DNA from: Geobacter sp.
Lineage (GTDB): Bacteria > Desulfobacterota > Desulfuromonadia > Geobacterales > Geobacteraceae
Assembly: GCA_027356255.1 (NCBI GenBank)
Contig: DAIEGL010000124.1
Coordinates: forward strand, 1 to 60,197
Direction: 5' to 3'
Length of the DNA stretch: 60,197 nt
A model generated the notes under the pieces. The model saw only the letters and a list, made by a program, of their open reading frames with translations, ran no database searches and was not told the DNA's origin. Shown here one piece after another: positions 8,058-27,200 of the stretch. The position numbers and the translations under genes were made by a program. Position 1 is the stretch's first letter, and each line of letters begins with the position of its first letter.

Positions 8058-8825
8058 TCAAGTTTCTGTTGCCCGGTTGGCGCCATGCTGCCGTTGGGGG
8101 AGCTCCGACCAGAGGGTCGAGAAGTCCGCCACGCTGAGCGGCCGCCGGAAGAACGCCAGGAAGGGCGTGTCGGGCGTCCCCCCCAGAAACATCGAACTGG
8201 GCGCACCCTTGCCGTGTCTTTTCAAGGCATCGCCGATGAAGACGAGCTCCCAGTCTCTCTCCGGCTCAAACCTGTCGAGCACGACAAAACCGGCATCCTT
8301 CTGCGCCAGCTCCCCCAGCTGGCCGCGGCAGCGGTCGTAATCGGCAGCATCCGTAGGCGGGAGATCCGTGATGCCCGCCGGCGCGCCGCCCCACTCGGGA
8401 AGCGGCGCCCGCAACCCGTGAAGCGCCTCTTCCAGGTCGGGGAGCGCACGGTATGCCTTGACCGAAAGCTTTTCCATCTCACCCCAGAGGTCGGCACAGA
8501 CCAGGGTCAACCGGTCCCAATTTTCGGCCCATCCCGGCAGAGGACCGCTCCCCATGACCATAAAAGGGAAGGGGCGTCCGATGCGGTCGCTGCTCTCCCG
8601 CAGCAGGCCGCAGGCGATCTCGTCGCCCGCGGTCCCCCTGGCCCAGAACCGCCAGGAACAGGGGATCGGGGTCTGACGTCCCAGCAGAGGATAACCCTTG
8701 GCCACCCAGTCGGAAAAGCCGGCCGCCAGGGGAAACTGCCGCCCGATACTGAAGTAATCCCTGGCAACGGGATGCTTGCCGCTGGCGGCCCAGCGCCAGG
8801 GACGCCCCTTTCTCAGTTCCAGCAC
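8058..8825 (-). CDS. tagF: TagF-family T6SS-associated protein
   Basis: The 255-residue frame matches the TagF/ImpM (DUF2094) family: SGKHPVARDYFSIG near the start (family form KLPxxGDF), WRFWARG, GRPFPFMVMGSGPL, and C-terminal PSSMFLGGTPDTPFLAFFRRPLSVADFSTLW. In Pseudomonas aeruginosa, TagF represses the H1-T6SS post-translationally, independently of the PpkA kinase. No ATG fits. GTG at 8825 overlaps the end of tssM by 13 bp and is chosen; CTG/TTG alternatives lie nearby. The gene sits between tssM and tssA, a usual position. Confidence 0.87.
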   Translation of the reverse strand: MLELRKGRPWRWAASGKHPVARDYFSIGRQFPLAAGFSDWVAKGYPLLGRQTPIPCSWRFWARGTAGDEIACGLLRESSDRIGRPFPFMVMGSGPLPGWAENWDRLTLVCADLWGEMEKLSVKAYRALPDLEEALHGLRAPLPEWGGAPAGITDLPPTDAADYDRCRGQLGELAQKDAGFVVLDRFEPERDWELVFIGDALKRHGKGAPSSMFLGGTPDTPFLAFFRRPLSVADFSTLWSELPQRQHGANRATET

Positions 8826-11800
8826 TGGGTGATCGTCCTGGGGAGCTGTCCCGGCAGATCTTTCCCTCGCCCCGCGATTTCGTGGCCGCCGCTGATCTGG
8901 TAGTTGACCCGGATGAACTTGATCCCCATCCGCTCCAGGGCCTGTCTCTCCCTGGGGAAATCCTGGGGATGGAGCACCCGCCGCCCGCCGGGAAAGTCCT
9001 GCAGGAACTCGGGAAAGCCCTGGGGTCCCGGATACTCCCGCGTGAGGATGAGATCGCCCACGTCGATCTGGAAGACCACGTCGCCGCAGGCATCGGGCGC
9101 CCAGATGAAGTTCTTGTTCACCGGGAAATTGAGGTTCTCGATCACCTGGCTCCCGGAGGCGCATTGCAGCTCCAGCTTGGTGCTCTGCGGCTTGACCCTG
9201 GCATCGGCATTGGCGTCCGTGGGGAGCCCCCTGATCGCCACGTTGTAGTTCTGCCGGGCCGGGGCGACCATCTTCACCTTGGCCCCCTTGGCCAGGAAGG
9301 AGAAAAAGGTCGGGGCAAACGGGATCGATCCTCCCAGAGCCGTCTTGGGGTAATAACCCCGCTGGGGGCTCCACCCCACGAACGGGTCCACCGAGGCGCT
9401 GACGAACTTCCAGACCGGCCCCTCTTTCGCCAGCAGATACTGGAGGGCCTGCGGGTCGGCGGCCCCCTGGGCCTCCTTCAGCACCTTCTCCTCCCACTGG
9501 GTCTGGAGGGAAGCGGCCGACTCCATCCGCACGTAGGTCCAGAAAAACGCGAGCGGGCCCGTGATGAGCCGGTCGAAAGTCTCGTCCCCCCGCCCGCCGC
9601 CGAGGGCGTTTTTCACCCTCTGGGACGCATCCGCCGCCAGATAGAACGGCGACTTGCTGGAGAGCGGATCTTCGGTGAACACCTGGAGCGCCAGCTTGAA
9701 CGCCTCCGACTGCGACTTGGCCACCGGGGCAATGGCGCTGATCGCCCCCTGGTATTCCTGGGCCGCCTTGGCGCCGGCCAGCTGGTTGTCAACCTTCGCC
9801 GGATTCTCCCCCTGTTTCCCCAACAGCTGCCCCACCTGTCCGACCAGCTTCTTCCCCTCTTCCACGGTCTTCACCGCGGCGCCCGCTGCCGCCCCGCCCG
9901 TCTTCAGCAGCCGGTACTGGAACACCTCCCTGACCCAGGCGGGTGCACCGTCGGTGACGCCAAACGGTTCCAGCTCGGCGACCACGCTGTTGAGAAAGGC
10001 GAAATAGGGCCCCTGGTCGGTCGCCATGACCGCGGCCGCAGCCTGCCATTCCCTGGCGCCGTTAAGCCTCTCCTCCCCCTTCGGCATCATCCCGGCGAAT
10101 TTCTGCCAGGCGGCGAAACAGGCGTCCCGATACCCTTTCTCGAAAAGAGCCTTTCCCCTCTCCATCACTGCCGGTTCGGGGAGGGCGGAGGCCAGCTCGC
10201 TCTCCATCCCGGAAACGCACTCCTTTCCCTTGCGGGTAAAGGCCGGGGCGATTACCGCGTCCTCAGCCGCGCCCCGCGTTCCGCCCCAGAACGACTGGAG
10301 GGTCAACCTGGCGCCGGCCACCTCCCGGTTGGCAAAATCGATCAGCCAGGTCAGACTCCCACCCTTCACGGCCAGGATCTGCTTCAGCCACGACTGCAAC
10401 ACCGCGATCTCCTTGCCGATCTCGGCATCGTCCGCCCGCCATTCCAGATAGCTGATATACAGCTCGCCGAATTTCCGGTTCGCTTCCGGGTCGTCCGGCT
10501 GGGCCGACAACATCAGGTAGGAAGGGAGCGGTTTCTTCCGGAGCGCGGCAAGCCCGGGGTCGTCCCGGCGGGCCTTGAGCAGGTTGATCCTCCTGACCAG
10601 GTGGACGATATACTGCCCCGCCAATTCATCCGGGGTCGCTGCGGAAAAACCGGCGATCGTACCGGTCATCCCCCTGTCGAAGGCGACCAGGAAACGATCC
10701 TGGAACTGCTTGCAGTATTTCGCCTTGAGCGCGGTCTCCGCCTTCAGGCTTTCGTTCAGGCCGAACCGGGGAATGATCCAGTGCCGGTTTTTCTGTTCGA
10801 TCTGCACGATCATCTGCCGGAACCGGTCCATGGTCGCCATGTCCGGCAGGGTGTCCCCCCTGAGCTCGACAGGCTTGGCGAGCACTGCCGAGGCCTCGCG
10901 GATCGTCGTCATGTTCTTCACGAAGGAATAGCTCAGGAGGCCGGACAGGGCGATCCCCAGGATCACCCACGAGGTGAGCCCCAGATTGCGGGTGAGGCTC
11001 TGCCACTCCTTTCGGCGCGTCGTCGGGGCAAACAGGCCCCGATCCTTCGGCAGCACCTTCTCAAAGAAATCGTGCAGGAACAGTCCCCTGGTGGTGCCGG
11101 GGAGGATCTCCTTTTCCTTGATCAGCCCCAGCTGGCTGAGAAAATGCGAGTAGGGGGTCCCTTCCTGCCGGCCGCTGCTTAGATAGAGCCCTCTGAGAAG
11201 CGGGGTCTCCTGGAAGCGGTTTTCCTGGAACGCGGCCCGCACGAACAGCTCCAGCCCCGGCTTGAGGTTCTGCACCTCTTCGGGGAACAGGAGCAGGCCG
11301 GGACCGGCCGCCCCCTTCTCGTTCTGATGGAGCATCAGTATCCGGAGACGTTTCAGCCGCTCTGCGAGCGTGGTTGCCGCCCGCCCCAGAAAGCCCTGCA
11401 CATCCCTGGCAAAGTCGGGGTTGATGACCCCCATGGGCTGATCCAGGCTCTTTTCCGGGAGCCGGTCGCAGAACTGGGTCATCCCCTGGATCAGGTCGCA
11501 CTTGGTGACCAGCAGATAGATGGGGAACTTGATCCCCAGGACCCGCATCAGCTCGTCGATCCTGGCCCGCAGCTGCTTGCCGTCGCTTTCCAGGACCTCC
11601 GGCGAGCCGTTGACCAGCTTGTCTGCGGCGACCGTGACGATCAGTCCGTGGATCGGCTCCCTTCGCCGGTATTTCACCAGCAGCGAGAGGAATTTCTGCC
11701 ACTCCTCGTTGTCCCGGCCGGAGTCGACCGGCATGGCGTAGCGGCCGGCGGTGTCGAGGATCACCGCCTGGTCGAAAAACCACCAATCGCAGTTGCGGGT

Positions 11801-12271
11801 CCCAGAAACGCCGGAGACATGGTGCATTTCGGCAAACGGGGAGGAGATGCGGGCGCTGGTGATGGCCGTGGTCTTCCCGGAACCGCTTTCTCCCATGACC
11901 AGATACCAGGGGAGTACATAGAGGGGGTTCCCCTCCTTTTTCAGATGGGAGCGGCGCAAGGTTTCGACCGCCTCTTTCCAGCGCTGCTGCAGCTCCCTGA
12001 TCTGGCTCTGCTCCTCGTTCGGCAGCTTTCCCAGCCGGGCGTTGTCCTGCTCGATCACCTGCTGCACGAACTGCTGCTCCTTGCGGCGCAGAAGCAGTTT
12101 CCTGACGAAAAGCCCGCCGATGAACAGCCCGACCAGACAGAGAGAGAGAAAGATGCCGACCCACCACGGCCAGTTCATCATCAGAACGAAACCGAAAACG
12201 AGGAGGATGACCAGGATAGCGGTGGCGACCAGGAGGAAATATTTCAGGCAGGTAAGTATGGTCTCTTTCAA
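8813..12271 (-). CDS. tssM: T6SS inner-membrane protein TssM (IcmF)
   Basis: TssM spans the envelope and links TssL to TssJ. The 1152-residue protein has two N-terminal membrane helices (about residues 10-31 and 38-56), a cytoplasmic GTPase-like domain with Walker A GESGSGKT at 127-134, a third helix around SWVILGIALSGLLSYSFV, and a long periplasmic part ending in the IcmF C-terminal beta domain. Walker A is intact, unlike in some TssM proteins. A TTG at 12271 behind AGGAGGGG is preferred over the ATG at 12304, which overlaps tssL. The end overlaps tagF. Confidence 0.94.
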   Translation of the reverse strand: MKETILTCLKYFLLVATAILVILLVFGFVLMMNWPWWVGIFLSLCLVGLFIGGLFVRKLLLRRKEQQFVQQVIEQDNARLGKLPNEEQSQIRELQQRWKEAVETLRRSHLKKEGNPLYVLPWYLVMGESGSGKTTAITSARISSPFAEMHHVSGVSGTRNCDWWFFDQAVILDTAGRYAMPVDSGRDNEEWQKFLSLLVKYRRREPIHGLIVTVAADKLVNGSPEVLESDGKQLRARIDELMRVLGIKFPIYLLVTKCDLIQGMTQFCDRLPEKSLDQPMGVINPDFARDVQGFLGRAATTLAERLKRLRILMLHQNEKGAAGPGLLLFPEEVQNLKPGLELFVRAAFQENRFQETPLLRGLYLSSGRQEGTPYSHFLSQLGLIKEKEILPGTTRGLFLHDFFEKVLPKDRGLFAPTTRRKEWQSLTRNLGLTSWVILGIALSGLLSYSFVKNMTTIREASAVLAKPVELRGDTLPDMATMDRFRQMIVQIEQKNRHWIIPRFGLNESLKAETALKAKYCKQFQDRFLVAFDRGMTGTIAGFSAATPDELAGQYIVHLVRRINLLKARRDDPGLAALRKKPLPSYLMLSAQPDDPEANRKFGELYISYLEWRADDAEIGKEIAVLQSWLKQILAVKGGSLTWLIDFANREVAGARLTLQSFWGGTRGAAEDAVIAPAFTRKGKECVSGMESELASALPEPAVMERGKALFEKGYRDACFAAWQKFAGMMPKGEERLNGAREWQAAAAVMATDQGPYFAFLNSVVAELEPFGVTDGAPAWVREVFQYRLLKTGGAAAGAAVKTVEEGKKLVGQVGQLLGKQGENPAKVDNQLAGAKAAQEYQGAISAIAPVAKSQSEAFKLALQVFTEDPLSSKSPFYLAADASQRVKNALGGGRGDETFDRLITGPLAFFWTYVRMESAASLQTQWEEKVLKEAQGAADPQALQYLLAKEGPVWKFVSASVDPFVGWSPQRGYYPKTALGGSIPFAPTFFSFLAKGAKVKMVAPARQNYNVAIRGLPTDANADARVKPQSTKLELQCASGSQVIENLNFPVNKNFIWAPDACGDVVFQIDVGDLILTREYPGPQGFPEFLQDFPGGRRVLHPQDFPRERQALERMGIKFIRVNYQISGGHEIAGRGKDLPGQLPRTITQCWN

Positions 12272-12284
12272 GGTAACACCCCTC

Positions 12285-12950
12285 CTAGAAAAGTTTGCCG
12301 GCAATGCTGCTCAGGCTGAAACGATAAATGAAATAGAGAACGGCGAAGAGGAGCACCGGCCCGGCCAGCCCGATGGCTGTCACCAGGGAAAAGCGCAGCG
12401 GTTGGCGCTTTTGGGCGATCTCGGCGACCTGCTGCGGGAGCGCCTCGGGGAAGAGCTCCATTCTGTCCAGCGAAGGGACTCCCACGGAACTGCCGGTCAG
12501 GATCTTCAGATTCGAGGTCTTCAGCTGTTCCAGCAGGTACTCGTCGCCGGACTGGATGAAACGCCCCTTGAAGCCGAGGGCGAGGCAGAGGTAATAGATC
12601 TCCCGCACCTCCTGCTGGTGAAAGCCCAGGTTGTTCAGGCGTTCGAAGACCTCGACGCCAGCATCGGTGGTATTGTAGTAGAGCCGCTGCAGCTGTTCCC
12701 GCTGCCACAGGTTCTTCTGGTTCCACTCCGAGCCGAGCAACACCTCGTCGATCCAGGCGCAGACGATGAACCGGGCCTGATCGTAGTCGTCGGCCGACAC
12801 CTCCCCCTTTTTGGCCATGGCCTCGCTCTGGAAGAGGAGCCGCTGAATGTCCCCCTTCACCTGGTCAAAGGTCGGCTGTCGCGCCGCCACCCCCTGTTGA
12901 AAGGCGACGACATAGGCGACGAGCTCCATAAAACAGTCGTTAAGATGCAT
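12285..12950 (-). CDS. tssL: T6SS inner-membrane protein TssL (DotU), no peptidoglycan-binding domain
   Basis: TssL forms the membrane complex with TssM and TssJ. The 221 residues cover the cytoplasmic DotU domain (LNDCFMELVAYVVAFQQG, FIVCAWIDEVLLG, EVFERLNNLG, EIYYLCLALGFKGRF) and one C-terminal membrane helix (about residues 188-212). It stops about nine residues after the helix, so the OmpA-type anchor found in extended TssL proteins is missing. Start ATG at 12950 with GGAGA upstream. The usual tssK-tssL adjacency is broken by a two-gene insert upstream. Confidence 0.93.
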   Translation of the reverse strand: MHLNDCFMELVAYVVAFQQGVAARQPTFDQVKGDIQRLLFQSEAMAKKGEVSADDYDQARFIVCAWIDEVLLGSEWNQKNLWQREQLQRLYYNTTDAGVEVFERLNNLGFHQQEVREIYYLCLALGFKGRFIQSGDEYLLEQLKTSNLKILTGSSVGVPSLDRMELFPEALPQQVAEIAQKRQPLRFSLVTAIGLAGPVLLFAVLYFIYRFSLSSIAGKLF

Positions 12951-13112
12951 TGTTGTCTCCTGGGTCAGGGTCGTTCTCTGGTATTTGCAAATTCGACTTT
13001 GCAATCAAGTTGATACCGAGCGTAAGGGCTCGACGCTCCGCGCCCAATCAGTGGCGGACTTCATCCGCCATGGCGCGTCTAACAGAATGCATGAGCGCAT
13101 TTCTCGCACTTT
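12951..13112. other. Structured intergenic region between the cargo insert and tssL
   Basis: 162 bp without a gene but rich in hairpins. TTGCAAA/TTTGCAA (12985-13004) has a 6-bp loop. GAGCGT/ACGCTC lies near 13019-13038. TGGCGGA/TCCGCCA (13052-13070) has a 5-bp loop. On the minus-strand transcript these follow the inserted gene at 13113-14339 and precede tssL, so they could be a partial terminator or processing site, or the scar of the insertion. Confidence 0.5.
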
Positions 13113-14339: not shown

Positions 14340-16165
14340 GGCGTCTCCTCGTAGATTACGTAGCTTTTATTAGCAACACTTATATATGCAGCTTCCTTTA
14401 CAATCTCATCTCTTTTGCCATCAGTAAGTTCACCCAAAGTATCTTGAATTTGTTTTGTCTGCCGTCTCGCAATAATATTCACAGCTATCCTCTTCACCTG
14501 AGTATCCGCATCCAGGCGATAAAACCGATAAGGGTTATACTGGGTGAATCTGGGCCAGAGGCTGGTGTCTACGGCATCCAAAGCCTTTTTGGCTTTTTGG
14601 CAATACTCTACGTAATTGACGCCATCCAAGAGGGTCAGATACCAGTCCGTGCCAAACAGGATGCGGTCCTTTATGTGCTCCCCATCCGGGCCTTGCATGA
14701 TCTTTATGAAGTAATCACGGAAATCTCCGTCGGCAAATGACGATGATAGGTCCGCGTACAGGTTGGGATACTTCTTCTCTTTGATCATCCGGATGATCTG
14801 ACGGCCCCATTCCCGTCCGAGGTCGCTGTTCCCTCCAAAATGGGCAAGACAGAGATGCAAGGTATTCAAACGCGTGCCGTTGGCGGTCTTGTCCAAGACC
14901 TGCCGCCAGGCATCTGGCGCGACAAAGTGTGTGTTGAAATATTTCTTTTCGCCAGTGGCATCCTTCTGTTTTTGGTCTTCGTCAGTATCGTTCGGATGCA
15001 CAAAATCGAAATATTCATCCCGGTCGAAGCTTGGTGCCCCGCCTGGCGTGCAATGATTCAGGACCGGAATCTCCCTTTTGCAGCACTCTGCATAGAAATC
15101 CGCCATCGCCGGCAGTCTGGGGTCCCAGGGGCGATAACCCTGGGCCGTGTACATTTTGAAACCCAGGTATAGCCCGGTTGGACCCACTTGCTCGAATGCC
15201 TCCGCGTTGCCCTTCAATTGCCAGCGCCTGGGGTCGTAGTGGAACATGGGAAGCAGCTTGAGGGGGTTGGCGAGGACCACCCGTTCCGTGTATTGAAGCT
15301 GCTTTGACCACGGCTCATACAGGTCTGTTTCGTCCGGGGCCAGGCAGGGGGCGGCTTTTATGCGGATCCGCTCGTTCTTGAGAGAACTACTGTCATAATA
15401 GATTCCGGTTATCCCCTGCTCATGCGCCGTTTCCCTGTACTTTTCAAACTCTTCGTTCGTTTGCCCTCTCTCCGGGAGGAGCGGCCGCTCTTTGTCTATC
15501 CTCGTATAGGAATCTCCCCGCTTGTCCCAATAGCCGTGGCTTGGGTACCAGTAGTGGATGGGTTTTTTCGTGGTGTCCTCGTCGGCGTAGATGGCGTTGT
15601 AGACCTTGATACCGAAGTACCCGTCGATATGGGCGTATTCCATGTCCATGGTCATGAGAACACCAGCAAATACCAGGTGCGACAGGTCTTTGTACTGATC
15701 TTCTTTCATGACCTCATCGAAGACCTGGTTCCTCTTGACGATATAGTCGGCGCCGACTTCAAAGGTCTTCTTCTGCGATTCCGGCACCATCTGCCGGACA
15801 CCAGCCTTCCTGTAATGGTCCCCGTTTTCGTCCGGTATGGCGCCGAACGTCTGCTTGATCTTCCCGACGACCGGCTTGAGCATGATAAAATCAGCTATGG
15901 TGAAAAAGACTTCACCGGTGGTCTCTATTGTGGCCCGCTTGAGCTTCATGAACTTCATGGGCCCGAGTTGGCCGTGCAAAAACGGCAGGGGCGCGCAGTT
16001 CCCGCTCTGAATGTGCATGTGGGAGTCTATAATTACGGATGGCCGGTAGATGCTGATCCGGTGCATTCCGCCGCACAACAAATCTTCCTTTACGGATTTC
16101 AGTACGGCGCCGTTGGGATCGTTCTGTTCCACTTTCTTCTTTGCCTTTTCGTGGTTTGCTGCCAT
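14327..16165 (-). CDS. Amidohydrolase-superfamily-like protein inside the T6SS locus, candidate effector
   Basis: 612 residues with the ordered metal-ligand pattern of the amidohydrolase superfamily: H49/H51 in IIDSHMHIQSG, K337 in GLYLGFKMY (possible carbamylated lysine), H371 in PVLNHC, H442 in CLAHFGGN and D507 in ILFGTDWYL. This predicts a metal-dependent TIM-barrel hydrolase. It is longer than typical members, with an extra segment at about residues 65-300 and a C-terminal helical tail. There is no signal peptide and no PAAR, VgrG or Hcp fusion. The start at 16165 has AGGGAA upstream. It interrupts tssK-tssL and is coupled to the gene at 13113. Effector status is inferred from position only; substrate unknown. 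Confidence 0.75.
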   Translation of the reverse strand: MAANHEKAKKKVEQNDPNGAVLKSVKEDLLCGGMHRISIYRPSVIIDSHMHIQSGNCAPLPFLHGQLGPMKFMKLKRATIETTGEVFFTIADFIMLKPVVGKIKQTFGAIPDENGDHYRKAGVRQMVPESQKKTFEVGADYIVKRNQVFDEVMKEDQYKDLSHLVFAGVLMTMDMEYAHIDGYFGIKVYNAIYADEDTTKKPIHYWYPSHGYWDKRGDSYTRIDKERPLLPERGQTNEEFEKYRETAHEQGITGIYYDSSSLKNERIRIKAAPCLAPDETDLYEPWSKQLQYTERVVLANPLKLLPMFHYDPRRWQLKGNAEAFEQVGPTGLYLGFKMYTAQGYRPWDPRLPAMADFYAECCKREIPVLNHCTPGGAPSFDRDEYFDFVHPNDTDEDQKQKDATGEKKYFNTHFVAPDAWRQVLDKTANGTRLNTLHLCLAHFGGNSDLGREWGRQIIRMIKEKKYPNLYADLSSSFADGDFRDYFIKIMQGPDGEHIKDRILFGTDWYLTLLDGVNYVEYCQKAKKALDAVDTSLWPRFTQYNPYRFYRLDADTQVKRIAVNIIARRQTKQIQDTLGELTDGKRDEIVKEAAYISVANKSYVIYEETPCTA

Positions 16166-16213: not shown

Positions 16214-17608
16214 TCACGATCGCCCCACGACCATCAGCTCCACCTCCAGGTCCTCGGGGGCGTCGTCCCAGTAGAGCGCCACATTCTGCCCCTTTTCCAC
16301 CAGGGCCCACTGCTCGTTGTGGGCGTCGATGGCGAAATAGATGCAGAACGCCCTGCGGGGGAGTTCCTGGGGCGGCGTGGGGAGATGCTCGGTGCCGATG
16401 CCGGGGAGCGCCCGGGCAATGAGGAGCGGCAGCCGCTCGCGGGAGCTCAGCTTGGCCGTGGAGGCCAGCGACTGGAGCACCGCCTTGGGATCTGCCTCGG
16501 TCTGCAGCACCAGGAAATAGCGGTTGCGGCTTTCGAAGTGGGCCGGCTTCATGTCGGAAGTGAAATAGGTGCCGTCGTAAACCAACGGAAGCACGTATTC
16601 CGGGCCGGCGGTGATCTCGTCCAGGAGGCGCAGAATCAGGAGCTGGGCCGCCGTGAAGCATTCCCCCAGGTTGCGGTGGTCGTAGGGGGGATAGAGCGGG
16701 ACCCCGTCCGCCACCGACTCGCCAAGGACGGTCACGGTTTCGGAAAAGGAGGACAACTCGCCGACGATCTGCCGCAACACCCCGTAAACCTGCCAGGGAT
16801 GGACCTCCCGCGCCTCCGTGTACTGGAACAGGAGCGGCACGTAGCGGTTCAGGGAACGGAGCGCCAGCAGGTAGACCACATCACGGGAACCGAACTCGGC
16901 CGTCTGGATTCCCCGTTGCCTTTTGTACCCCTCCAGCTGCCGGCAGCGCGAAGCCAGCTGGTCCCTGACCTCCTTGACCACGGCGTACAGGGTCGGGGAA
17001 CTCCCGATGGTCAGGGCCGGCGGGACGAACAGCGGGGATAGCTCAATCCCGTCCCGGGTCCTTTCCAGCTGCGCGATCGGCATCAGCAGGTAATCCCCCA
17101 CCAGGTCTGTTTCCGTTTCCCAGAAAATCCTGAGCAGGTACTGCATCCGCCGGACTTCCCCCTGCGGACCGCCGGCATGCAGGTCGGCGCACTGCTCCGC
17201 ATCGGCGCCGGCGACGAACCGGGTCGTCACCTTGGCGAGACCGTCCAGGGCCTCGACGGTGGTGACATTCTCGCCGGTTTCGTCCCACTTCTTGATGCCC
17301 AGATAGATGGTGAACGGTTTGCTCCCCGCCACCCACCCCTCGTCAAAGGGGCGGGATTCGCACAGGGCATTGTCAGGCAGAACCGCATGGGTGCCGTCCG
17401 GAAAGAGGAATGAGCCCCTGGTCAGCTGGAAGGCGCCGGTCCCGAGGGCAGCCTTCTGGACGCCCATTTCGTAGACCCCCCAGAAATGGGGGGTCAGATA
17501 CTCCTGGTAGGGGATGAGCTGCGACTGGGCGCACCGGTCGGCGAGCTGAAAATGCTGCGGCTGCAAGAAGAGCCCTTGATGCCAGAAAAGCGGCCGTTGT
17601 AGTTCCAT
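16214..17608 (-). CDS. tssK: T6SS baseplate protein TssK
   Basis: TssK trimers connect the baseplate to the TssLM membrane complex. The 464-residue protein begins PLFWHQGLFLQPQHFQLAD, the family signature, and has the C-terminal domain with YFAIDAHNEQWALVEKGQNV. The ATG at 17608 overlaps the tssJ stop as TAATG, the usual coupling of these two genes. Normally tssL follows directly; here the amidohydrolase gene begins 48 bp downstream. Confidence 0.95.
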   Translation of the reverse strand: MELQRPLFWHQGLFLQPQHFQLADRCAQSQLIPYQEYLTPHFWGVYEMGVQKAALGTGAFQLTRGSFLFPDGTHAVLPDNALCESRPFDEGWVAGSKPFTIYLGIKKWDETGENVTTVEALDGLAKVTTRFVAGADAEQCADLHAGGPQGEVRRMQYLLRIFWETETDLVGDYLLMPIAQLERTRDGIELSPLFVPPALTIGSSPTLYAVVKEVRDQLASRCRQLEGYKRQRGIQTAEFGSRDVVYLLALRSLNRYVPLLFQYTEAREVHPWQVYGVLRQIVGELSSFSETVTVLGESVADGVPLYPPYDHRNLGECFTAAQLLILRLLDEITAGPEYVLPLVYDGTYFTSDMKPAHFESRNRYFLVLQTEADPKAVLQSLASTAKLSSRERLPLLIARALPGIGTEHLPTPPQELPRRAFCIYFAIDAHNEQWALVEKGQNVALYWDDAPEDLEVELMVVGRS

Positions 17609-18198
17609 TATTTCACCTGCACGTTCGTTATTTCGAAGGGGCCCAGTTCCATACGGATGGTGGTACCCCCTTTGCCTGCCACGTTTGCCAGGGGGGAGAG
17701 ATGGGTCATCTTCTCCTTCCCCGTGCCGTAATAGCCGGAGGCGATGCCGAGGTAGCGAGCGCCTTCTGCCCGGTCGCGCATCTCTTTCAGCTCCTGTCCG
17801 GGCTGGACCACCAGCCGCTTGGCATTGGCCACGGAACCGTCGAAACGGCCGCACTCCAAAAGCTTGGCGAGTCCGTCATCCTCCTCGGCCAGCTGATTGA
17901 AGCCGTTGGGGTCTTTCAGCTGGTAAACGCAGAGGAACAGGGCATGGGCGTTGTTCTGGTAGCGGTTCAGCTGGGGATCGGCCTTGATGAGGATCGATAT
18001 GTCGTCTTTCCTGAAAGCCTCGGCAGACCTGGCGGCTTCCGCCTTCAGCGCGTCGATCCTGGCCGCCTCCGGGATTTCTGGGGCCTGCAGCGACGGGGCG
18101 TCTGCCTTGGGAACCTGCGGCGTCTTCTTGGCAAACCAGGAACAGGAGCAGCAGGCCCCGGCCAGGGCCGCTATGGCAACTATCTTCAGAATTTTCAT
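17608..18198 (-). CDS. tssJ: T6SS outer-membrane lipoprotein TssJ
   Basis: TssJ (SciN) is the outer-membrane lipoprotein that binds the periplasmic tail of TssM. The 196-residue precursor has a lipoprotein signal with lipobox LAGAC (residues 12-16), a spacer, and the conserved beta-sandwich core: LIKADPQLNRYQNNAHALFLCVYQLKD as separate strands, then the VVQPGQ turn and YLGIASGYY. Start ATG at 18198 behind GAGG, 3 bp after the upstream gene. Confidence 0.93.
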   Translation of the reverse strand: MKILKIVAIAALAGACCSCSWFAKKTPQVPKADAPSLQAPEIPEAARIDALKAEAARSAEAFRKDDISILIKADPQLNRYQNNAHALFLCVYQLKDPNGFNQLAEEDDGLAKLLECGRFDGSVANAKRLVVQPGQELKEMRDRAEGARYLGIASGYYGTGKEKMTHLSPLANVAGKGGTTIRMELGPFEITNVQVK

Positions 18199-18201
18199 GG
18201 A

Positions 18202-18960
18202 CTACCTCATGGGAGATTTGAACGTCTGCTGGCACTGCTTCTCGAAGTCCCGCAGCAGTCTTTCCGTCAACTGGCCGGAACTGAACCAGCGGCGACAGCG
18301 GGCATGGCGCTCCTCGTACATCTCGAACAGCTCAGCCTTGCGCAACGGGCCGAACTTGAGCCCGGACGACTTTGCCTGTGCCAGAGACTCCGGGTCCAGT
18401 TCCGTAAGGAGTTCGTCCAGAACGGCCGTGGCCGCCACCTGGTACGACTGGTGCGCCACCTGAAACGCCTGCTTTATCTGGTCAAGATAATCCTTGAGCG
18501 AAGCGCCCCCCGCCCCTTCTTCCAGATTCGAGCCGATGACCTTGCGGATGGTGGCCAGCTCCGGGTGCTGGCCGAGCAGGGTGACATTGATCACGGAAAT
18601 GATCTCGTTCAGCGTGTCGAACAGCGTGTTCAGGCTTTGGGCAAACTTCCCGGAGATCTCGTCGGACCCGATTTCGGTCGTACCGATCGCCTTCCCGAGA
18701 AAGAGAGAAATCAGCCGCGTCACGTCTGCCGAAGCCTGTGTGGTCGCCTGGCTCCCCATGGTGGTTGCCACAACGACGGGTTCGGGACGGTCGAACCGCT
18801 CGGCCAGCGACTCCAGGAGATGCAGCCGCTCAGCCTGGGGGAGAGCGCCGAGTTCCCGGTCGAGGTACCCTTCAACGGCGCTCTCAAGGTCAGAGGGACA
18901 GGAACTGCCGATTGACCTGACCCCGCGGGCCAGGTTGTCCACCAGGAGCGAATTATTCAT
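18202..18960 (-). CDS. T6SS-associated protein resembling the C-terminal domain of FHA (TagH) proteins
   Basis: 252 mostly helical residues with no membrane segment. The C-terminal half (SLKDYLDQIKQAFQVAHQ, AVLDELLTELDPESL, KAELFEMYEERHARC, LLRDFEKQCQQTF) resembles the domain that follows FHA in TagH-type T6SS proteins (helices, a DPExL turn, an aromatic ExY motif and a terminal F). In this locus that domain appears to be a separate gene, with the FHA part encoded at 20527-21456. The ATG at 18960 has AAGGA upstream; another in-frame ATG lies at 18975. Confident as a T6SS component by position, moderate for the family. Confidence 0.65.
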   Translation of the reverse strand: MNNSLLVDNLARGVRSIGSSCPSDLESAVEGYLDRELGALPQAERLHLLESLAERFDRPEPVVVATTMGSQATTQASADVTRLISLFLGKAIGTTEIGSDEISGKFAQSLNTLFDTLNEIISVINVTLLGQHPELATIRKVIGSNLEEGAGGASLKDYLDQIKQAFQVAHQSYQVAATAVLDELLTELDPESLAQAKSSGLKFGPLRKAELFEMYEERHARCRRWFSSGQLTERLLRDFEKQCQQTFKSPMR

Positions 18961-18971
18961 GGCAACATCCT

Positions 18972-20267
18972 TCAATTTCTGGGGAACCTGGGGCGGATTC
19001 TCCCCCCCTGCGGCATGACGACGATCGTCTCCGCCAACTCATCCGTCTCTTCCGGCGCCTCAGCCGCTGGCGGCGACTGGTCGTCCGGCTGTATCCTCTC
19101 CGGCGCTGCCGTAGGTAAAAACTGCCGTGTCGGTCGGGAAGGATTAAGCAGCACCGTTTCCAGCAGACCGTCTGCGCCCGGGTTCGCCGGCGGCGCAGCC
19201 GCATGTACCTGTGCCGGGGCAGAACGGGGGAGTATATAGGTTTCATCAAGTTGCGGTTCGGCCGGCGGTGCCGCATTCCGCGCGAACGCCGGCCCAGGTG
19301 ACAGAATGACCGTTTCCATGGTCTCATCGAAATCGTCCGGCGCAGAGACGGGCGATGCCGGCGCCGGTATCGGCCGCAGCTCCTGCCGGTTCCTGGCGAT
19401 GAGCCGCGACAGCACCCCGTGCAACTCCCTGTCGTCGGGGCGCCGCAGCTCCTGCACCGGTTGCTCCAGGCGCGGCCCCACGGCAAACATGGCCGCTTTC
19501 AGATCGGCCCGCAGCTCCTCGACCGACCGGACGATCCCGTCACAACTCGCATCGTGCCGTTTCGCCGCCCCGAGCAGTTGGTAGCCCGGCGCACAGGCCC
19601 GTTCCCACAGCGGGAGCCACTCCCCTCTGAGCGGGATACTCCCCGGATGCCAGAACAGGTTGTCCGGGGTTGCAAGTTCCCGTAGCGCCCGCCCCGGGTC
19701 AGCAGCATCCGCCGACGCCGCCAGATACTCGTTCACGGCGCCGAGCAACTTGCCATCCCCTACCCGCCCGTTCCGGATCAGCAGCTGAAACCAGACCAGC
19801 CCCAATGAAGTGAGGGCATCGGCGCTTGCCTCAAGCCGGGGCGCAGCAGGAAGCGGTGCGATATCCGCCAATAATTCGATCTGGAAATTCCAGCATAACG
19901 GCAGCAGCCCGCTCGCCGGCGGGATGCGCACCCAGACCCGGTCGCATTTCACCCCGGCCGGGGGTTGATCGTTCCGGCCGAGACACTGCTGCAGCAGGTC
20001 GCTCAAAAGGGTGAGCTTCAAAAAGAGCGTTTCCAGGAAGGAACGGTCATCCCCCCGGGGGAAGAGCGGCTCGCCCGGGAAGCCGGCCCCCCGGAGTTCC
20101 CCGAGGCGATTGACCCGGCCCCGGTTCAGGATCGGATCGAGACGGGCTTGAAGCTCCTCGATACCGGCACCGGAAAGAATTTGCACGAAATCGAGGGCCG
20201 GCAGCGAGGGGGCCTCCGCGAGCAGCAGGTAAAATGGAAGCGGCTTGTTTTCTGTCAGTAATGCCAT
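18972..20267 (-). CDS. T6SS-associated protein with four C-terminal ETxxL/V motifs
   Basis: I do not recognise a named family for the 431-residue product. Residues 1-290 look globular and helical with several Trp. Residues 300-431 form a Pro/Ala-rich, probably disordered tail with four spaced copies of a short motif: METVILSP (T319), DETYILPR (T343), LETVLLNP (T371) and AETIVVMP (T414). Each has Glu at -1 and Leu/Val at +3 from the Thr, the spacing FHA domains read in phosphothreonine ligands. A tandem FHA protein is encoded just upstream. Inference: a phospho-switch scaffold of the T6SS. ATG at 20267, weak RBS. Confidence 0.6.
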   Translation of the reverse strand: MALLTENKPLPFYLLLAEAPSLPALDFVQILSGAGIEELQARLDPILNRGRVNRLGELRGAGFPGEPLFPRGDDRSFLETLFLKLTLLSDLLQQCLGRNDQPPAGVKCDRVWVRIPPASGLLPLCWNFQIELLADIAPLPAAPRLEASADALTSLGLVWFQLLIRNGRVGDGKLLGAVNEYLAASADAADPGRALRELATPDNLFWHPGSIPLRGEWLPLWERACAPGYQLLGAAKRHDASCDGIVRSVEELRADLKAAMFAVGPRLEQPVQELRRPDDRELHGVLSRLIARNRQELRPIPAPASPVSAPDDFDETMETVILSPGPAFARNAAPPAEPQLDETYILPRSAPAQVHAAAPPANPGADGLLETVLLNPSRPTRQFLPTAAPERIQPDDQSPPAAEAPEETDELAETIVVMPQGGRIRPRFPRN

Positions 20268-20294
20268 GGCAATGTCCCGAATAAACCTAAAACC

Positions 20295-20474
20295 GGCAGT
20301 TGAAGGGGGCCGGATTGAGCGACTACGCGCAATTTCGTTGCCGCTCTTAGCGAAATGAGCGTCAACGGCCGATATTGTCTGAACCCGGAGGGGGAGTTTA
20401 TCGGCTGTAGCGGAATGAGCTTAGAGCGGCAGAAACAGGGCGTTCGGAGCGAAAGAAGGCCCCCTTCAACTGCC
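20295..20474. repeat. 180-bp nested palindromic element
   Basis: The ends GGCAGTTGAAGGGGGCC (20295-20311) and GGCCCCCTTCAACTGCC (20458-20474) are a perfect 17-bp inverted repeat. Inside, GCCGCTCTTAGC and GCTTAGAGCGGC pair imperfectly, and GCCGATA/TATCGGC pair at the centre. It lies between the FHA gene and the ETxxL gene, with no coding capacity. No transposase is present. The arm is related to the repeat at 3993-4036. It could be a MITE-like repeat or a structured leader/attenuator. Confidence 0.8.
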
Positions 20475-20526
20475 GCATTCAGGTTAAATGTTTCCTGTTT
20501 TCCCGGGGAGACACGCGGGTCTGCCC

Positions 20527-21456
20527 CTACCTTAATCCCTTGACAAATCTGGAGAGGAAGCCCGGCGCCGCTTTTCCGGCGGCCTCGTCCCTCGTCTCGA
20601 TCTGCACATCGGCCGTTCTCTGCTGACACTGCTCAATGGGAGCCGTTTCAACCTCGGCCAGCCTTCCATCCCCCAGGAACTTGAATACAGGCCCCTGAGG
20701 AGAACAGGCGATTTCATCGAGCTGATTGAGCCGTACCGGCATGTCGATCGGCCGGCCGTTCACCGTCACCACCCTCTGTCCGGTCAGCTCCTTCAGCCAG
20801 TAATTCCCCTGGCTGAAGAACAGTTGCACATGCTGTTCGCATATCCCGGCGTGCTGCAGCACGAAGTCGCACCGGGCATGGGTGCCGATGACGACGGGGA
20901 GCTCCCGGTACGAGCGGATGGTCGGCCCGAACTGGATGATCAGGGGGGCATTCACCTTTTGCGGCGTGGCCACCGGTGCCGCTGCTTCCTCCCTTGCAGG
21001 GGGGGGGACGCTCGGCACAATCGACGGCCGCGGCGGCTCCGGCCGCGCTTCCGGGGCGACCGGCGCCATGGCGATCACCGGTGCCGGTTCCGGCTCCCTG
21101 ACCGGCATAGGCTCCGGCTCCGCCAGCCCCTCCACCACCTCGGCATTGAAGCTCACCTTGGGACCGCCGCTGCCGAACTCGATCACGTCGCCGTTGCGGA
21201 GCACCGCTTCCCGTACCTGCTTGCCGTTCACAAAGGTGCCGAACCGGTCATTCCCGGCGATCAGTTTGAACTGGTTCCCCTCCCGCTGGATTCTGGCGTG
21301 GTCGCGGGAAACGCCCGGCTCGTCTGGCGGGAAATGCAGGGTAGATGACGGCAGCCGGCCGATCGTAATCAGCGGGTCGCCAAACTCCTGGATCTGCCCC
21401 TTCAATCCCCCCTGGATATGAATGAGCTGGACGACAATGCGCGGTGGATGCTTCAT
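20527..21456 (-). CDS. Tandem FHA-domain protein of the T6SS locus
   Basis: 309 residues with two forkhead-associated domains joined by a Pro/Ala-rich linker (about 110-175). FHA1 (about 5-105) has the full phosphothreonine-binding set: IGR, SRDHARI and GTFVNG. FHA2 (about 180-285) is degenerate: IGT replaces IGR and CEQHVQL replaces the SRxHA motif, while VTVNGRPI remains. In P. aeruginosa, Fha1 is phosphorylated by PpkA and promotes H1-T6SS assembly. Neither kinase nor phosphatase is in this window. The start is ATG at 21456, 42 bp after the Pal-like gene. Confidence 0.88.
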   Translation of the reverse strand: MKHPPRIVVQLIHIQGGLKGQIQEFGDPLITIGRLPSSTLHFPPDEPGVSRDHARIQREGNQFKLIAGNDRFGTFVNGKQVREAVLRNGDVIEFGSGGPKVSFNAEVVEGLAEPEPMPVREPEPAPVIAMAPVAPEARPEPPRPSIVPSVPPPAREEAAAPVATPQKVNAPLIIQFGPTIRSYRELPVVIGTHARCDFVLQHAGICEQHVQLFFSQGNYWLKELTGQRVVTVNGRPIDMPVRLNQLDEIACSPQGPVFKFLGDGRLAEVETAPIEQCQQRTADVQIETRDEAAGKAAPGFLSRFVKGLR

Positions 21457-22158: not shown

Positions 22159-24198
22159 TCAGCGCTTGGCCTGATTAATTTGCGCCTTGGCCTTGCTGAT
22201 ATCCTCGGAAGACGCATAGCGGACCGGCCAGACATAGCCGACCTTGTTCTTGTTTTTCAGGCTCACGCTCCCATTCCCCAGATTTATGGAATAGGAATAC
22301 ATGGGACCGAGGGGATTGATCGATGAACTCCAATAATTGTCGTGTTTGACGATATTGCTGAACGGGTGCCCATCCGGATAAGATCCGTCCATGCCACCCT
22401 GTTTATCGACGAGGACCTTCCACTCTTCCTTGGTCGGCAGATGCCAGTCGGCATAGCCGCCGTATTTCAGGTTATCCACATACTGCATGGCCTCATCCAG
22501 CTCCATGCCCCGATAGGGATAATTGGCATTCTTCAGCCACATCAGGCGGGTCCTGGTGTCGATAACCACGTCGCCGTACAAAAGGAAGCGCCCCTTGGCA
22601 TCGGATGCCACCGGTTTCAACTCTTCCAGTTTCTGGCTGTAAAGCTCCCGCTCCTCCTTCAGCTTCAGCCGTTCCTGCTCCATGGCCAGTTTTTGCTTCG
22701 TCAGTTCGTTCTCAATCCTGGCCCGCTCCTCATCGGCCTTTCGCCGCTGCGCCTCCAGTTTCTCCGTCTCTTTCCTGATCTGCGCCATCCGCTGCTGCTG
22801 CTCCTCCTCGACCAGCTTTCTCTTCTCCTCTTCCTTCTTGAGCCTGGCCTCGGTCTCCTCCTGCAAACGCTCCCGTTCCCGCACCTTCTTTCTTTCCGCC
22901 TCTATCTTGCTTCGTTCGGCCAGCATGCGCTGCTTCTGCTGCTCGATCTCGGTCAGCGATGCCGTAGCGACGTTGTTGCTGTTTTTCTGCAAGGCTTGCA
23001 GCCGCTCTTCTTCAGCCATATTCTTCCTGGCCAGCTCCTCCAGGCTGTTCTTGTCGCTCAACAGGCTCTTGCGCTCCGCTGCCAGCCTGGCTTTTTCCGC
23101 AGTGGACTTCTTCTTTTCCTCCTCAAGCTTGCGCCTGATGGTTTCAGTTTCCTTTTCCTGCGCCTCGTTCTCCGCAGCCAGTTTCTTCAGTTCCGCATTC
23201 TTCTGCTCGGCCTTCTTCCGCTCCTCTTCCAGCTGCCGCTTGACGGCCTCGTTCTCCTGCTTCAACTTCTCCATCTCTTCTTTCAGGTTCGGCTTTTTCG
23301 GGCGCTCCGCCACATTCAGCTTGGCCAGGACGAAAAGGCCGTCGTCGTCGATGGCGCTCTGCACCCTGGACCGTTCGGGTCTCTGGCTCCCTTTCTGGTC
23401 CACCTGCGGCTGAATCTGCTGATTGAAAAGCGTAGCCACATCAACGTATTTTCTCTGGTTTTCCTCCAGCGACTTGATCATGTAATGGGCAAAGAGGCTG
23501 TGCTCGCTGCCGCGCACCCCATCCTCCACCGGCTCGTTGCCGCCCGAGGTGATGACCTCCCGGGACTTTCTGGAGGCGCGCTCCTGCAGCTTCTGGTTCA
23601 GCGCATCCTCATCGTCGTCCACCATCACATCGTTGGTCAGGCTGCGCCGCATCATGGTGCCGCTGTAGCAGCTGTCCGCGACCAGGAGGAAATTCTTGAT
23701 TTTGATCTTCTCCGTCTCCAGCAGGGCCCGTATCTGGGAATGGGCAATCCAGCTGCTGGGATCGTCGCTCTTGCCGTCGATCGGAATCCAGTACCCCTCC
23801 TTGGTCAGGTCGTCCACATTGCCGTGGCCGGCGTAATAGACGAGCAGGTTGTCCTTGTCCGTCAGCTTCTGCGCCTTTTCCCGCAACAGCCTGACGATAT
23901 TGGAGGCGGTCGGTTTTTTCTCCGTCTTGTCCGTAATCAGGACGACGTCCTCGAACCCGTACTGATCCTTCAGCACCTGCCCCAGCTTTTCCACGTCCTT
24001 GACCGGCGTCTTCAGGTGCGGCATCACCTGGTAATCGTTGATGCCGATGAGCACGGCGTGGTATGAGCCGAGCCCCGCGGCAACGGCGGAAGGCTCTTTC
24101 GCCCTGATGGAAATGCCGCGCTGCCCGCCGGCATAAGCCGGAATGACGAGTGAGACGCAAAGCGTAACAATTACCAGCACCTTAAACACATTTTTCAT
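22159..24198 (-). CDS. Exported caspase-like (C14) protein with coiled coil and DUF1566-type C-terminal domain
   Basis: 679 residues. A signal peptide (1-23, ending PAYAG) leads to a caspase-like domain (about 45-290) with the His/Cys dyad at H125 (YYAGHGN) and C177 (ADSCYSGT). Residues about 300-545 are a charged Glu/Lys/Arg coiled coil. The C-terminal domain (about 550-665) has the DUF1566/Lcl pattern: DTRTRLMWLKNA, AMQYVDNLKYGGYADWHLPT, YWSSS and WPVRY. It starts 37 bp after the TpsA stop and ends 36 bp before the Pal-like gene, bridging the adhesin and T6SS blocks. The target is unknown; processing of TpsA is one possibility. Confidence 0.85.
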   Translation of the reverse strand: MKNVFKVLVIVTLCVSLVIPAYAGGQRGISIRAKEPSAVAAGLGSYHAVLIGINDYQVMPHLKTPVKDVEKLGQVLKDQYGFEDVVLITDKTEKKPTASNIVRLLREKAQKLTDKDNLLVYYAGHGNVDDLTKEGYWIPIDGKSDDPSSWIAHSQIRALLETEKIKIKNFLLVADSCYSGTMMRRSLTNDVMVDDDEDALNQKLQERASRKSREVITSGGNEPVEDGVRGSEHSLFAHYMIKSLEENQRKYVDVATLFNQQIQPQVDQKGSQRPERSRVQSAIDDDGLFVLAKLNVAERPKKPNLKEEMEKLKQENEAVKRQLEEERKKAEQKNAELKKLAAENEAQEKETETIRRKLEEEKKKSTAEKARLAAERKSLLSDKNSLEELARKNMAEEERLQALQKNSNNVATASLTEIEQQKQRMLAERSKIEAERKKVRERERLQEETEARLKKEEEKRKLVEEEQQQRMAQIRKETEKLEAQRRKADEERARIENELTKQKLAMEQERLKLKEERELYSQKLEELKPVASDAKGRFLLYGDVVIDTRTRLMWLKNANYPYRGMELDEAMQYVDNLKYGGYADWHLPTKEEWKVLVDKQGGMDGSYPDGHPFSNIVKHDNYWSSSINPLGPMYSYSINLGNGSVSLKNKNKVGYVWPVRYASSEDISKAKAQINQAKR

Positions 24199-24235: not shown

Positions 24236-27200
24236 TCAAAAAACCTGCTTCTCCTCCATCAGCAGACACGGATTGCCGTCCGGCAGCACCCCCGGCAGGA
24301 ACTCCTGGACCGGCTTGGGCTTCTCCTGGTCATCCATGGAGATCGCCTCATTGGGCGCCACCGAGAAGAACTCCTCAAAGCTGGTCAGCATCAGCATGCT
24401 GTCCATCACCTTGGAGTTGACCGCCATATTGATCGTCTTCCCACCCAGGAGCACCGACTCCTGATACGCCTCCTGCAACCCGCCGCCGGCAATCATCCCC
24501 TTGTACAGGACAACCCCCGGCGCATCCGACTGGATATTCGGCCAGGAGTTATACATGACAACCCCGGGAGCATACGCCTGAACCTTCTGCCAGTTGCTCA
24601 TATCGACACTTTCCAGCTTCGCTGAGGCCGCCAGTTCCGATCCGGTGGCATGCACATTGATCTGTCGGGCCGAAATGCGTGGTTTTGACTTCATGCCGAT
24701 GGTTTCTGCATTCAGGTTCACCGTATTGGCGTAAATGGAACCACCCTCTATGGTTTTTGCGGTCAGAGTCACCGTGTCGCCGATAATGGTATCGGGACTG
24801 ATCACCATGTTCCCTTTCGTTGACAGGGTGACGTCGCCGGTGTTCTTCACCTCGTTGATGTAGAGATCGGTCATGTCGGCAAACTCGATATTGCCGGAAC
24901 CGCCATTGACGGCATTGAACGTCTTGACCTCGTTCTGCGCCAGGAGGGCGGTCCCGCTGGCCGAGGTGGTGGTCAGCAGGCCGTTCGTCGCGATGATGCC
25001 GCCGGTCTGGTCGATCCTCCCCTGTTCGGCGTTCAGGGCGATCTTGCCGCTCTCGCTCTTCAGGTTGTGGGCAACCGTGATCCCCTTTACCCCCTCCAGG
25101 GTCATGTTGCCGGTGGTGGTCGTCAGGTCGGCGGCCGTGCTCAGGGTGCCGCCGCTATGGAGGAAGAGGTCGGCACTCCCGGTGTCGATGGCAGTGGCGG
25201 GAAGGGTCAGCTTCCCGGCGGCCACCACCCGGAGCGGGCTGTTGGAGGCTATGGCGAGGGAACCCAGGGCAAGATCGTTCCTGTCCCGGATGGAGGTGGC
25301 GCCGCCGGCCACAGACACGGCGCCGCCGAAGTCGTTATCGCCGTTGTCCAGGGTGACGGCGCTGCCGCCGGCGTTGATGTGGCTTGCGCCGCTGACCGTA
25401 AGCGCGCCGCTCTGGCCGACCGCGCCGCCGGCGTTCGCGACCAGGTCGCCGGTGACGGCAGTGGCGCCGAAGGTCAGCTCTTTCGAAGCGGTGGTGAGGC
25501 TCCCGCTGGTGCCGTCCACGGTCAGGTCGCCGCCGACGGTCAGCCGGGTATCGCCAGTGGCCAGGTGAGCGGTCAGGCCGTTTGCGTCCACGATCTTCGT
25601 GCTACCGCCGGTCACGGTCACCGCACCGATGAAGTCATTGGCTCCGTTGTCCAGGGTGACGGCGTTGCTGCCGGCATTGATGGTGCTCTGGCCGGTGACC
25701 GTCAGCACGCCGCTCTGGCCAACTGCGCCGGAGGCAGTGGCGACCAGGTCGCCGTTGACTTTGGTTGCGCCGCGGCCGAAGGTCAGCCCTTGGGAGTCAG
25801 TGGTCAGACTGGCGCTGTTACCGTCCACGATCAGGTCGCCGCCGGCAGTCAGCTCAGTTGCGCCGGTCGTCAGGTGGGCGGTCAGGCTGTTCTTGTCCGC
25901 AATTTTCGTGGTGCCAGCGACGACGGTAACCGCGCCACCGAAGTCATTGCCCGCGTTGTCCAGGGTCACAGCGTTGCTTCCGGCGTCGATGGAGCTGTTG
26001 CCGGAAACGGTCAGCGCTCCGCTCTGTCCGACCGCACCGGCGGAGGTCACAGCCAGGTCGCCATTGACAGTGGTTGCGCCGCTGCCAAAGGTCACGTTCG
26101 TCGCATTGGTGGCCAGATTACCGCTGGCACCGTCCACGGTCAGGTTGCTGCCGGCGGTCAGAGCGGTTGCATCGGTCGTGTTCAGGTGGCCCGTCAGGCT
26201 GTTTGCATCCACGATCTTCGTGGCGCCGCCGGTCACGGTCAGAGCGCCGATGAAGTCATTGTCGGCATTGTCCAGGGTGACGGCGTTGCTCCCTGCGTTG
26301 ACGGTGCTGGCTCCGGCGACCTTTAGAGCCCCGGTCTGTGAGACTGCGCCAGTGGCGGTCGCAGCCAGATCACCGTTAACTGTGGTGGCGCCGAAGGTAA
26401 GGCCGGCCGAGTGGGTGGTCAGGGTGGCACTGGCGCCAGCCACGGCCAGATCGCCGCCAGCAGTCAGATCGGTGGCGCCGGTCGCCAGGTGGGAGGTCAG
26501 GCTGTTCTTGTCTTTGAGAGTGGTGGCCCCGCCGGCGACCGTCACTGCGCCGACGAAGTCGTTGCCCGCGTTGTCCAGGGTGACGGTATTGCTGCCGGAG
26601 TTGATGGTGCCGGCTCCGGTAACCGAGAGAGCCCCAGTCTGCGCGACCGCGCCAGTGGCGGTCGCAGCCAGATTACCGTTAACGGTGGTAGCGCCGAAGG
26701 TCAGACCGGCTGAATGGGTAGTCAGGTTGCCGCTGGTGCCGTCTACGGTCAGATCGCCGCCGGCCGTCAGGTCGGTGGCGCCGGTCGTCAGATGGGCGGT
26801 CAGGCTGTTTGCGTCTCTGAGGGTTGTGGTGCCGCTGGCGACCGTCACTGCTCCGACGAAGTCATTGCCTGCATTATCCAGGGTGACAGCCCCGCTCCCC
26901 GCGTTGATGGTGCTGGCGCCGGTCACCGTCAGTACACCGGTCTGTCCGACCGCGCCAGTGGCGGTCGCAGTCAGATCGCCGGTAACGGTGGTGGTGCCGC
27001 TGCCGAAAGTCAGGCCGGCCGAGTGGGTGGTCAGACCGGCGCTGGCACCGTCCACAGTCAGATCACCGCCGGCCGCCAGGTCGGAGACACCGGTGGTCAG
27101 GTGGACGTTCAGGCTGTTCTTGTCCTTAAGAGTGGTAGCCCCGCCGGCAACTGTCACGGCGCCACCGAAGTCGTTGGCGGCGTTGTCCAGATCAACGGTC

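Follow-up and report, generated by a model that had tools for sequence, protein, structure and literature searches.

What does a protein without recognizable family membership contribute to a type VI secretion system (T6SS) when its tail carries four similar threonine motifs and its gene lies next to that of a protein with two FHA domains? The question is raised by a 60,197-nucleotide stretch of DNA from a Geobacter sp. (hereafter the window), a contig of a 3.4-Mb, 301-contig assembly with a completeness of 84.6%. The window contains a T6SS cluster in the order ClpV N-terminal part, TssG, TssF, TssE, Hcp, TssC, TssB, TssA, a TagF-domain frame, TssM, TssL, an amidohydrolase, TssK, TssJ, a T6SS_FHA_C protein, the protein with the threonine motifs (the motif protein) and the tandem-FHA protein, beyond which an OmpA-domain protein and then a caspase-domain protein are encoded. 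The T6SS genes around the motif gene are open in frame. The two genes of interest lie exactly where the initial annotation had placed them, both on the minus strand, and all four tail motifs that it had quoted were recovered. The relevant features are as follows.

G000:C185:1-60197, the window
8058..9497, minus strand, TagF-domain frame
8813..12304, minus strand, TssM (IcmF)
12285..13004, minus strand, TssL (DotU)
16214..17854, minus strand, TssK
17608..18198, minus strand, TssJ
18202..18975, minus strand, T6SS_FHA_C-domain protein that lacks an FHA domain; its gene follows the motif gene in 56 of 62 loci
18972..20267, minus strand, motif protein of 431 aa, with a C-lobe-like helical part and a disordered tail, N-terminally truncated
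19296..19319, minus strand, motif 1, METVILSP (Thr319)
19224..19247, minus strand, motif 2, DETYILPR (Thr343)
19140..19163, minus strand, motif 3, LETVLLNP (Thr371)
19011..19034, minus strand, motif 4, the C-terminal copy, AETIVVMP (Thr414), its Thr column invariant in an alignment of 46 sequences
20268..20526, no strand, spacer of 259 bp, at the position where the N-terminal ~250 codons of the orthologues would be
20527..21456, minus strand, tandem-FHA protein P0002 of 309 aa, candidate reader of the motifs
20710..20895, minus strand, FHA2, with the phosphate-binding Arg, Ser and Asn missing from almost all members of the family
21172..21369, minus strand, FHA1, retaining GR and SRxH, but in the window without the loop Ser and Asn that relatives have
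An example of a 12-mer carrying the threonine motif is PELTETVLLSPA

In other T6SSs, TagF is known both as a partner and as a repressor of Fha. Between the genes for TssK and TssL, two frames are present, one of 612 aa with an amidohydrolase match (14327-16165) and one of 408 aa without a family match (13113-14339). Upstream of the FHA and OmpA genes of the T6SS, a protein is encoded that consists of a caspase (C14) domain, a long middle part and an Lcl_C domain (22159-24198). Further along lie the genes for a 3252-aa TPS-secretion-domain protein with PATR and DUF5649 repeats (24236-33994), for a second, short TPS-domain protein (36529-37497), and for a ShlB-type TpsB, the partner of the 3252-aa protein (39190-41049).

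The motif protein falls into two parts with very different predicted properties. In the AlphaFold2 model, the helical part has pLDDT values above 90 over much of its length, whereas the values over residues 307-431 are mostly below 50, in agreement with the disorder that had been proposed for the tail. The motifs in this tail are not a product of its composition. In 20,000 composition-preserving shuffles of the 135-aa tail, a threonine followed by three hydrophobic residues was found 0.055 times on average, as compared with four times in the actual sequence, and ETxx[LV] 0.07 times as compared with five; the observed count was reached in none of the shuffles for either form. EETDEL, the fifth sequence to fit E-T-x-x-L/V literally, is probably a coincidence.

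To find relatives, an alignment of orthologues had to be used as the query, as the window protein alone was insufficient and gave no match when searched against genome contigs. Relatives were found in 3 of 58 near genomes (this count includes the genome of the window) and in 16 of the 395 genomes of the phylum that were searched; none was found in four searched genomes of the same genus. The alignment-based scan yielded 64 named loci, mostly of Desulfobacterota/Thermodesulfobacteriota, with further ones in Nitrospirota, one in a Planctomycetia record and one in a Deferribacteres record. Two members (L043 and L049) are found in records named EthSRB1 and Eth-SRB2, which are apparently partner bacteria in alkane-oxidising consortia. 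In complete members, which are about 590-920 aa long, a conserved core of some 550 aa is followed by a tail that varies. Neither the motif protein nor the full-length orthologues tested matched any Pfam or NCBIfam model, a PDB sequence search revealed no relative, and no description of such proteins was found in the literature on T6SSs with FHA/PpkA, on those of Desulfobacterota or on pseudokinases. The motif proteins constitute an undescribed, T6SS-associated family. The long open frames had raised the possibility that the motif protein is fused to the T6SS_FHA_C domain; this was rejected because the extra length of the orthologues is N-terminal and T6SS_FHA_C is encoded separately.

The initial annotation had proposed to check whether the ETxx(L/V) array is conserved in orthologues while the rest of the tail drifts, and this was the case in the tails of 66 non-redundant members. 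When hydrophobic triplets were counted without assuming a preceding Thr, the residue before them was Thr in 259 of 263 cases, Asp in two, Glu in one, Ala in one, and Ser in none; Ser and Thr are equally common in these tails, each accounting for about 7.5% of the residues. A Thr followed by three hydrophobic residues occurs 280 times in the 66 tails (shuffle mean 6.9, maximum 13), with zero to nine copies per protein (median four), a median spacing of 30 residues and the last copy at a median distance of 14 residues from the C-terminus. The consensus is [DE][DE][LI]xE-T-[VI][IV][LIM]-SP, with an acidic residue at position -1 or -2 in 258 of the 280 motifs. All four Thr codons are in use (ACC 109, ACG 108, ACA 45, ACT 18), and the Thr is, therefore, kept at the protein level. 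Among related pairs with a core identity of 50-98%, the motif Thr was kept in 493 of 507 aligned cells, as opposed to 211 of 599 for other tail Thr and 39% for non-motif tail residues, counts that are partly driven by the alignment and come from pairs that are not independent. The tail is predicted to be disordered in both models that were made, i.e., of the window protein and of its homologue from Geobacter sp. OR-1 (L084). A search for the strict motif in TssJ, TssK, TssL, TssM, T6SS_FHA_C and the kinases gave no match. Unrelated FHA proteins (L038:4080-5666, L114:5214-6713 and L116-L122) have linkers that contain one or two Thr-hydrophobic motifs, such as SETQIL, EQTLMF, DKTMVM and AKTVVL; with 10 observed vs. 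0.38 expected, in a comparison chosen post hoc after the motifs had been seen, they hint at a genome-wide kinase/FHA motif.

The tandem-FHA protein is a candidate reader of these motifs. The pT+3 residue is important for the selectivity of FHA domains (PMC5549992), the Fha protein of Agrobacterium tumefaciens binds the peptide DLPpTVVEI with a Kd of 1.58 mM as an 8-mer and of 0.54 mM as a 20-mer and leaves the unphosphorylated peptide unbound (PMC3953482), and PknA-dependent phosphosites of Mycobacterium tuberculosis have acidic residues at -1 and at -3 to -6 and Leu or Val at +3 (PMC7164672). By sequence comparison, the consensus of the tail motif fits both this Fha ligand and the PknA substrate motif. 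With FHA genes in whole genomes located by Pfam, the FHA1 domains of 21 relatives were aligned, and GR and SRxH proved invariant and S[TA]NGT nearly so. The initial annotation had stated that FHA2 has lost its phosphopeptide-binding motifs while FHA1 retains them all. The former applies to nearly the whole family. The latter is true for the family but not for the window, because the loop, which reads D-x-S-[TA]-N-G-T in relatives, is A-G-N-D-R-F-G-T here; GR and SRxH are retained, and Ser and Asn are gone. In FHA domains in general, these loop residues matter for phosphopeptide binding. A frameshift as the cause of the change was rejected, since no alternative frame restores the loop. The FHA1 domain of the nearest relative (L021) has a Tyr for the Asn (NGT to YGT) in a locus that is otherwise complete. 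P0002 is not a canonical Fha/TagH protein: it scores 44 bits against TIGR03354, below the cut-off of 120.25, and the T6SS_FHA_C domain that accompanies FHA in Fha/TagH proteins is encoded here by a separate gene.

Gene order ties the family to the T6SS. The order motif protein, T6SS_FHA_C, TssJ, TssK is conserved, with the last two genes found downstream of the motif gene in 47 and 56 of 62 loci, respectively. In the window, L021, L022/L084 and L071, the motif gene is directly preceded by the tandem-FHA gene. A Ser/Thr kinase, which the initial annotation had proposed to look for nearby, is encoded within four genes upstream in 10 of the 56 loci that have an upstream gene, and downstream in none of the 62. 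Among these ten is L021, in which the genes for the kinase (Pkinase and PEGA domains), the tandem-FHA protein and the motif protein are contiguous. The window itself holds no kinase gene; the assembly contains two, both on other contigs, one of them (C138) beside PP2C, FHA plus transglycosylase and DUF2169 genes. In most of the other genomes checked (G185, G237, G342, G381, G416, G444, G445 and G446), a tandem-FHA gene of the P0002 type, usually with a neighbouring kinase and PP2C gene, lies on the same contig at 26-57 kb from the motif gene, with the sole kinase found in G416 being on another contig. G302, G398 and G176 have the tandem-FHA gene on a different contig from the motif gene, and in G447 the two are far apart. 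Linkage within 57 kb covers about ten genomes, and in many loci the available flanks contain neither an FHA nor a kinase gene. As in a T6SS threonine-phosphorylation pathway, a Ser/Thr kinase gene is linked to the T6SS in relatives, and PP2C genes stand beside their kinase and FHA genes.

The conserved core may itself be related in fold to protein kinases. The model of the OR-1 homologue has a mean pLDDT of 77.7, with the core mostly above 90 and the tail below 50. In VIA-align 2, protein kinases filled the first 50 rows of matches to this model, e.g., IRAK1 with a Z score of 16.0 and an rmsd of 3.6 Å over 255 residues, and BFVD gave a viral Ser/Thr kinase at an E value of 6.7e-4; Foldseek matches in the PDB were not significant (E 0.01 or worse). 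An independent model of the window protein matched kinase domains with a Z score of 11.4, often over C-lobe residues only (e.g., FAK 497-686), although a Z of about 11 can arise in helical proteins. Profile comparison (hhalign) with the kinases of these loci gave a probability of 0.2% and, thus, no support for kinase homology. The HRD and DFG sequences conserved in active kinases are present in 1 and 6 of 47 orthologues, respectively, as compared with all 18 kinase controls. The conserved PENIFW stretch resembles a kinase catalytic loop but was not accepted as one because of its position close to the C-terminus of the kinase-like domain. Eight invariant Cys residues lie in and beside the stretch between the N- and C-lobe-like parts. 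Hence, with moderate confidence, the full-length core is predicted to adopt a protein-kinase-like fold that is inactive and interrupted by a Cys-rich, zinc-ribbon-like insert.

The window copy retains only the C-lobe-like part and the tail. It begins at about core position 250, and the roughly 250 N-terminal residues that are absent relative to the orthologues were not found in the window or in the rest of the assembly. The spacer at 20268-20526 contains a strong hairpin element of ~200 bp, of which a 95% identical copy is present at C61:4898-5098 and a part recurs on contig C129. This element is MITE/REP-like and sits at the truncation point of the motif gene. Since both the FHA1 loop residues Ser and Asn and about 250 N-terminal residues have been lost, the window copy may be impaired.

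The best reading of these data is that the motif protein is a new component of a T6SS threonine-phosphorylation pathway, and we consider it fairly probable that it is the member of a T6SS phosphorylation module that bears a multi-motif phosphothreonine tail. A T6SS-linked Ser/Thr kinase would phosphorylate the tail threonines and a PP2C would reverse this modification. FHA1 of the tandem-FHA protein would bind the phosphothreonines, each of them weakly, and the presence of several marks on one tail would then provide avidity; given the weak binding at single sites, we infer that the motif array is plausible as an avidity device. In this way, the tail would concentrate FHA proteins at the assembly site and, via its operon mate, the T6SS_FHA_C protein, also parts of the membrane complex and the baseplate. 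The task of a canonical Fha, which combines FHA, a linker with the phosphosite and T6SS_FHA_C, would be split across three proteins, and the motif protein may serve as a hub with several docking sites by which the T6SS is switched on.

Such a mechanism had been presented as different from the known PpkA-Fha1 system; we would rather class it within the known pathway, as a variant that has a new substrate or scaffold. Like the PpkA/PppA/Fha1 systems of Pseudomonas aeruginosa and Serratia marcescens, it comprises a T6SS-linked Ser/Thr kinase, a PP2C, an FHA protein and TagF. However, in those systems, Fha itself is phosphorylated at one site, whereas here a protein distinct from Fha, with a median of four motifs, is predicted to be the substrate, and FHA and T6SS_FHA_C are found on separate proteins. 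In A. tumefaciens, where PpkA, TssL phosphorylated at Thr14 and Fha work together, the phosphothreonine of a partner protein is bound by FHA and activates the T6SS (PMC3953482). The sequence DLP-pT-VVEI resembles the tail motif, but TssL carries it as a single site, unlike the array in the undescribed family considered here. A multivalent hub has a precedent in the TssW-PpkA-Fha system of Acidovorax citrulli, where condensates of Fha and PpkA recruit T6SS parts (PMC12607579), although no separate motif-repeat protein has been described there. Rv1747 of M. tuberculosis, an FHA-bearing ABC transporter listed as condensate-forming, likewise reads phosphothreonine with a pT+3 preference, but it is a transporter outside the T6SS and lacks a motif array on a kinase-like protein.

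Other explanations deserve consideration. The motifs could be short linear motifs that act without phosphorylation, T-V-I-L adding a β-strand to a T6SS partner, e.g., T6SS_FHA_C or TssK, and Thr being preferred for strand geometry. The hydrophobic, β-branched T-V-I-L/I would suit β-augmentation, and the genes for T6SS_FHA_C, TssJ and TssK are directly downstream. However, a motif that only forms a strand should tolerate other residues, whereas Ser is never and a residue other than Thr only four times found before the 263 triplets; the acidic -1/-2 positions, the linkage to kinase, PP2C and FHA genes and the phosphorylation-dependent binding of the similar published ligand DLPpTVVEI (PMC3953482) also argue against this explanation, which we regard as improbable. 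Similarly improbable is a second one, according to which the motif protein is a pseudokinase that serves as an allosteric partner of an active kinase, with the tail as a substrate buffer or timer and FHA1 binding being secondary or performed by another FHA protein. The predicted kinase-like fold without conserved HRD and DFG, the kinase genes immediately upstream in several loci and the post hoc similarity to motifs in the linkers of other FHA proteins would fit, but in the window the tail is the part retained after loss of the N-lobe-like part, and a tandem-FHA gene directly precedes the motif gene in the four settings listed above.

A third explanation concerns the window only and is compatible with the preferred one for the family: the gene pair may be a decaying remnant that does not work here, while the family is functional elsewhere. 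The absence of the N-terminal residues from the whole assembly, the repeat element at the junction with its 95% identical copy on C61, the altered FHA1 loop and the lack of a homologue in the four congeneric genomes searched are consistent with decay. Against it, both frames are intact, the four motifs are kept, the surrounding T6SS genes are open, good folding is predicted for the protein even in its truncated form, the assembly is 84.6% complete, and the change from NGT to YGT in L021 occurs in an otherwise complete locus. On balance, decay is possible but rather unlikely.

To our knowledge, the known cases in which a kinase triggers T6SS assembly all involve single phosphosites on Fha or TssL, and the affinities of the TssL peptides are in the millimolar range. 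As a multi-motif phosphothreonine tail, the motif protein would represent a natural multi-site array with an adjacent reader gene, which offers a direct test of whether valency sets the firing threshold. More tentatively, a T6SS-dedicated pseudokinase with a metal-ribbon insert and a phosphothreonine array could, together with the tandem-FHA reader and the free T6SS_FHA_C protein, constitute a three-part Fha, i.e., a phosphorylation-tunable condensate scaffold that nucleates T6SS assembly in Desulfobacterota, Nitrospirota and others. This widespread family, for which no Pfam or NCBIfam model exists, would extend pseudokinase-like scaffolds to contractile injection systems.
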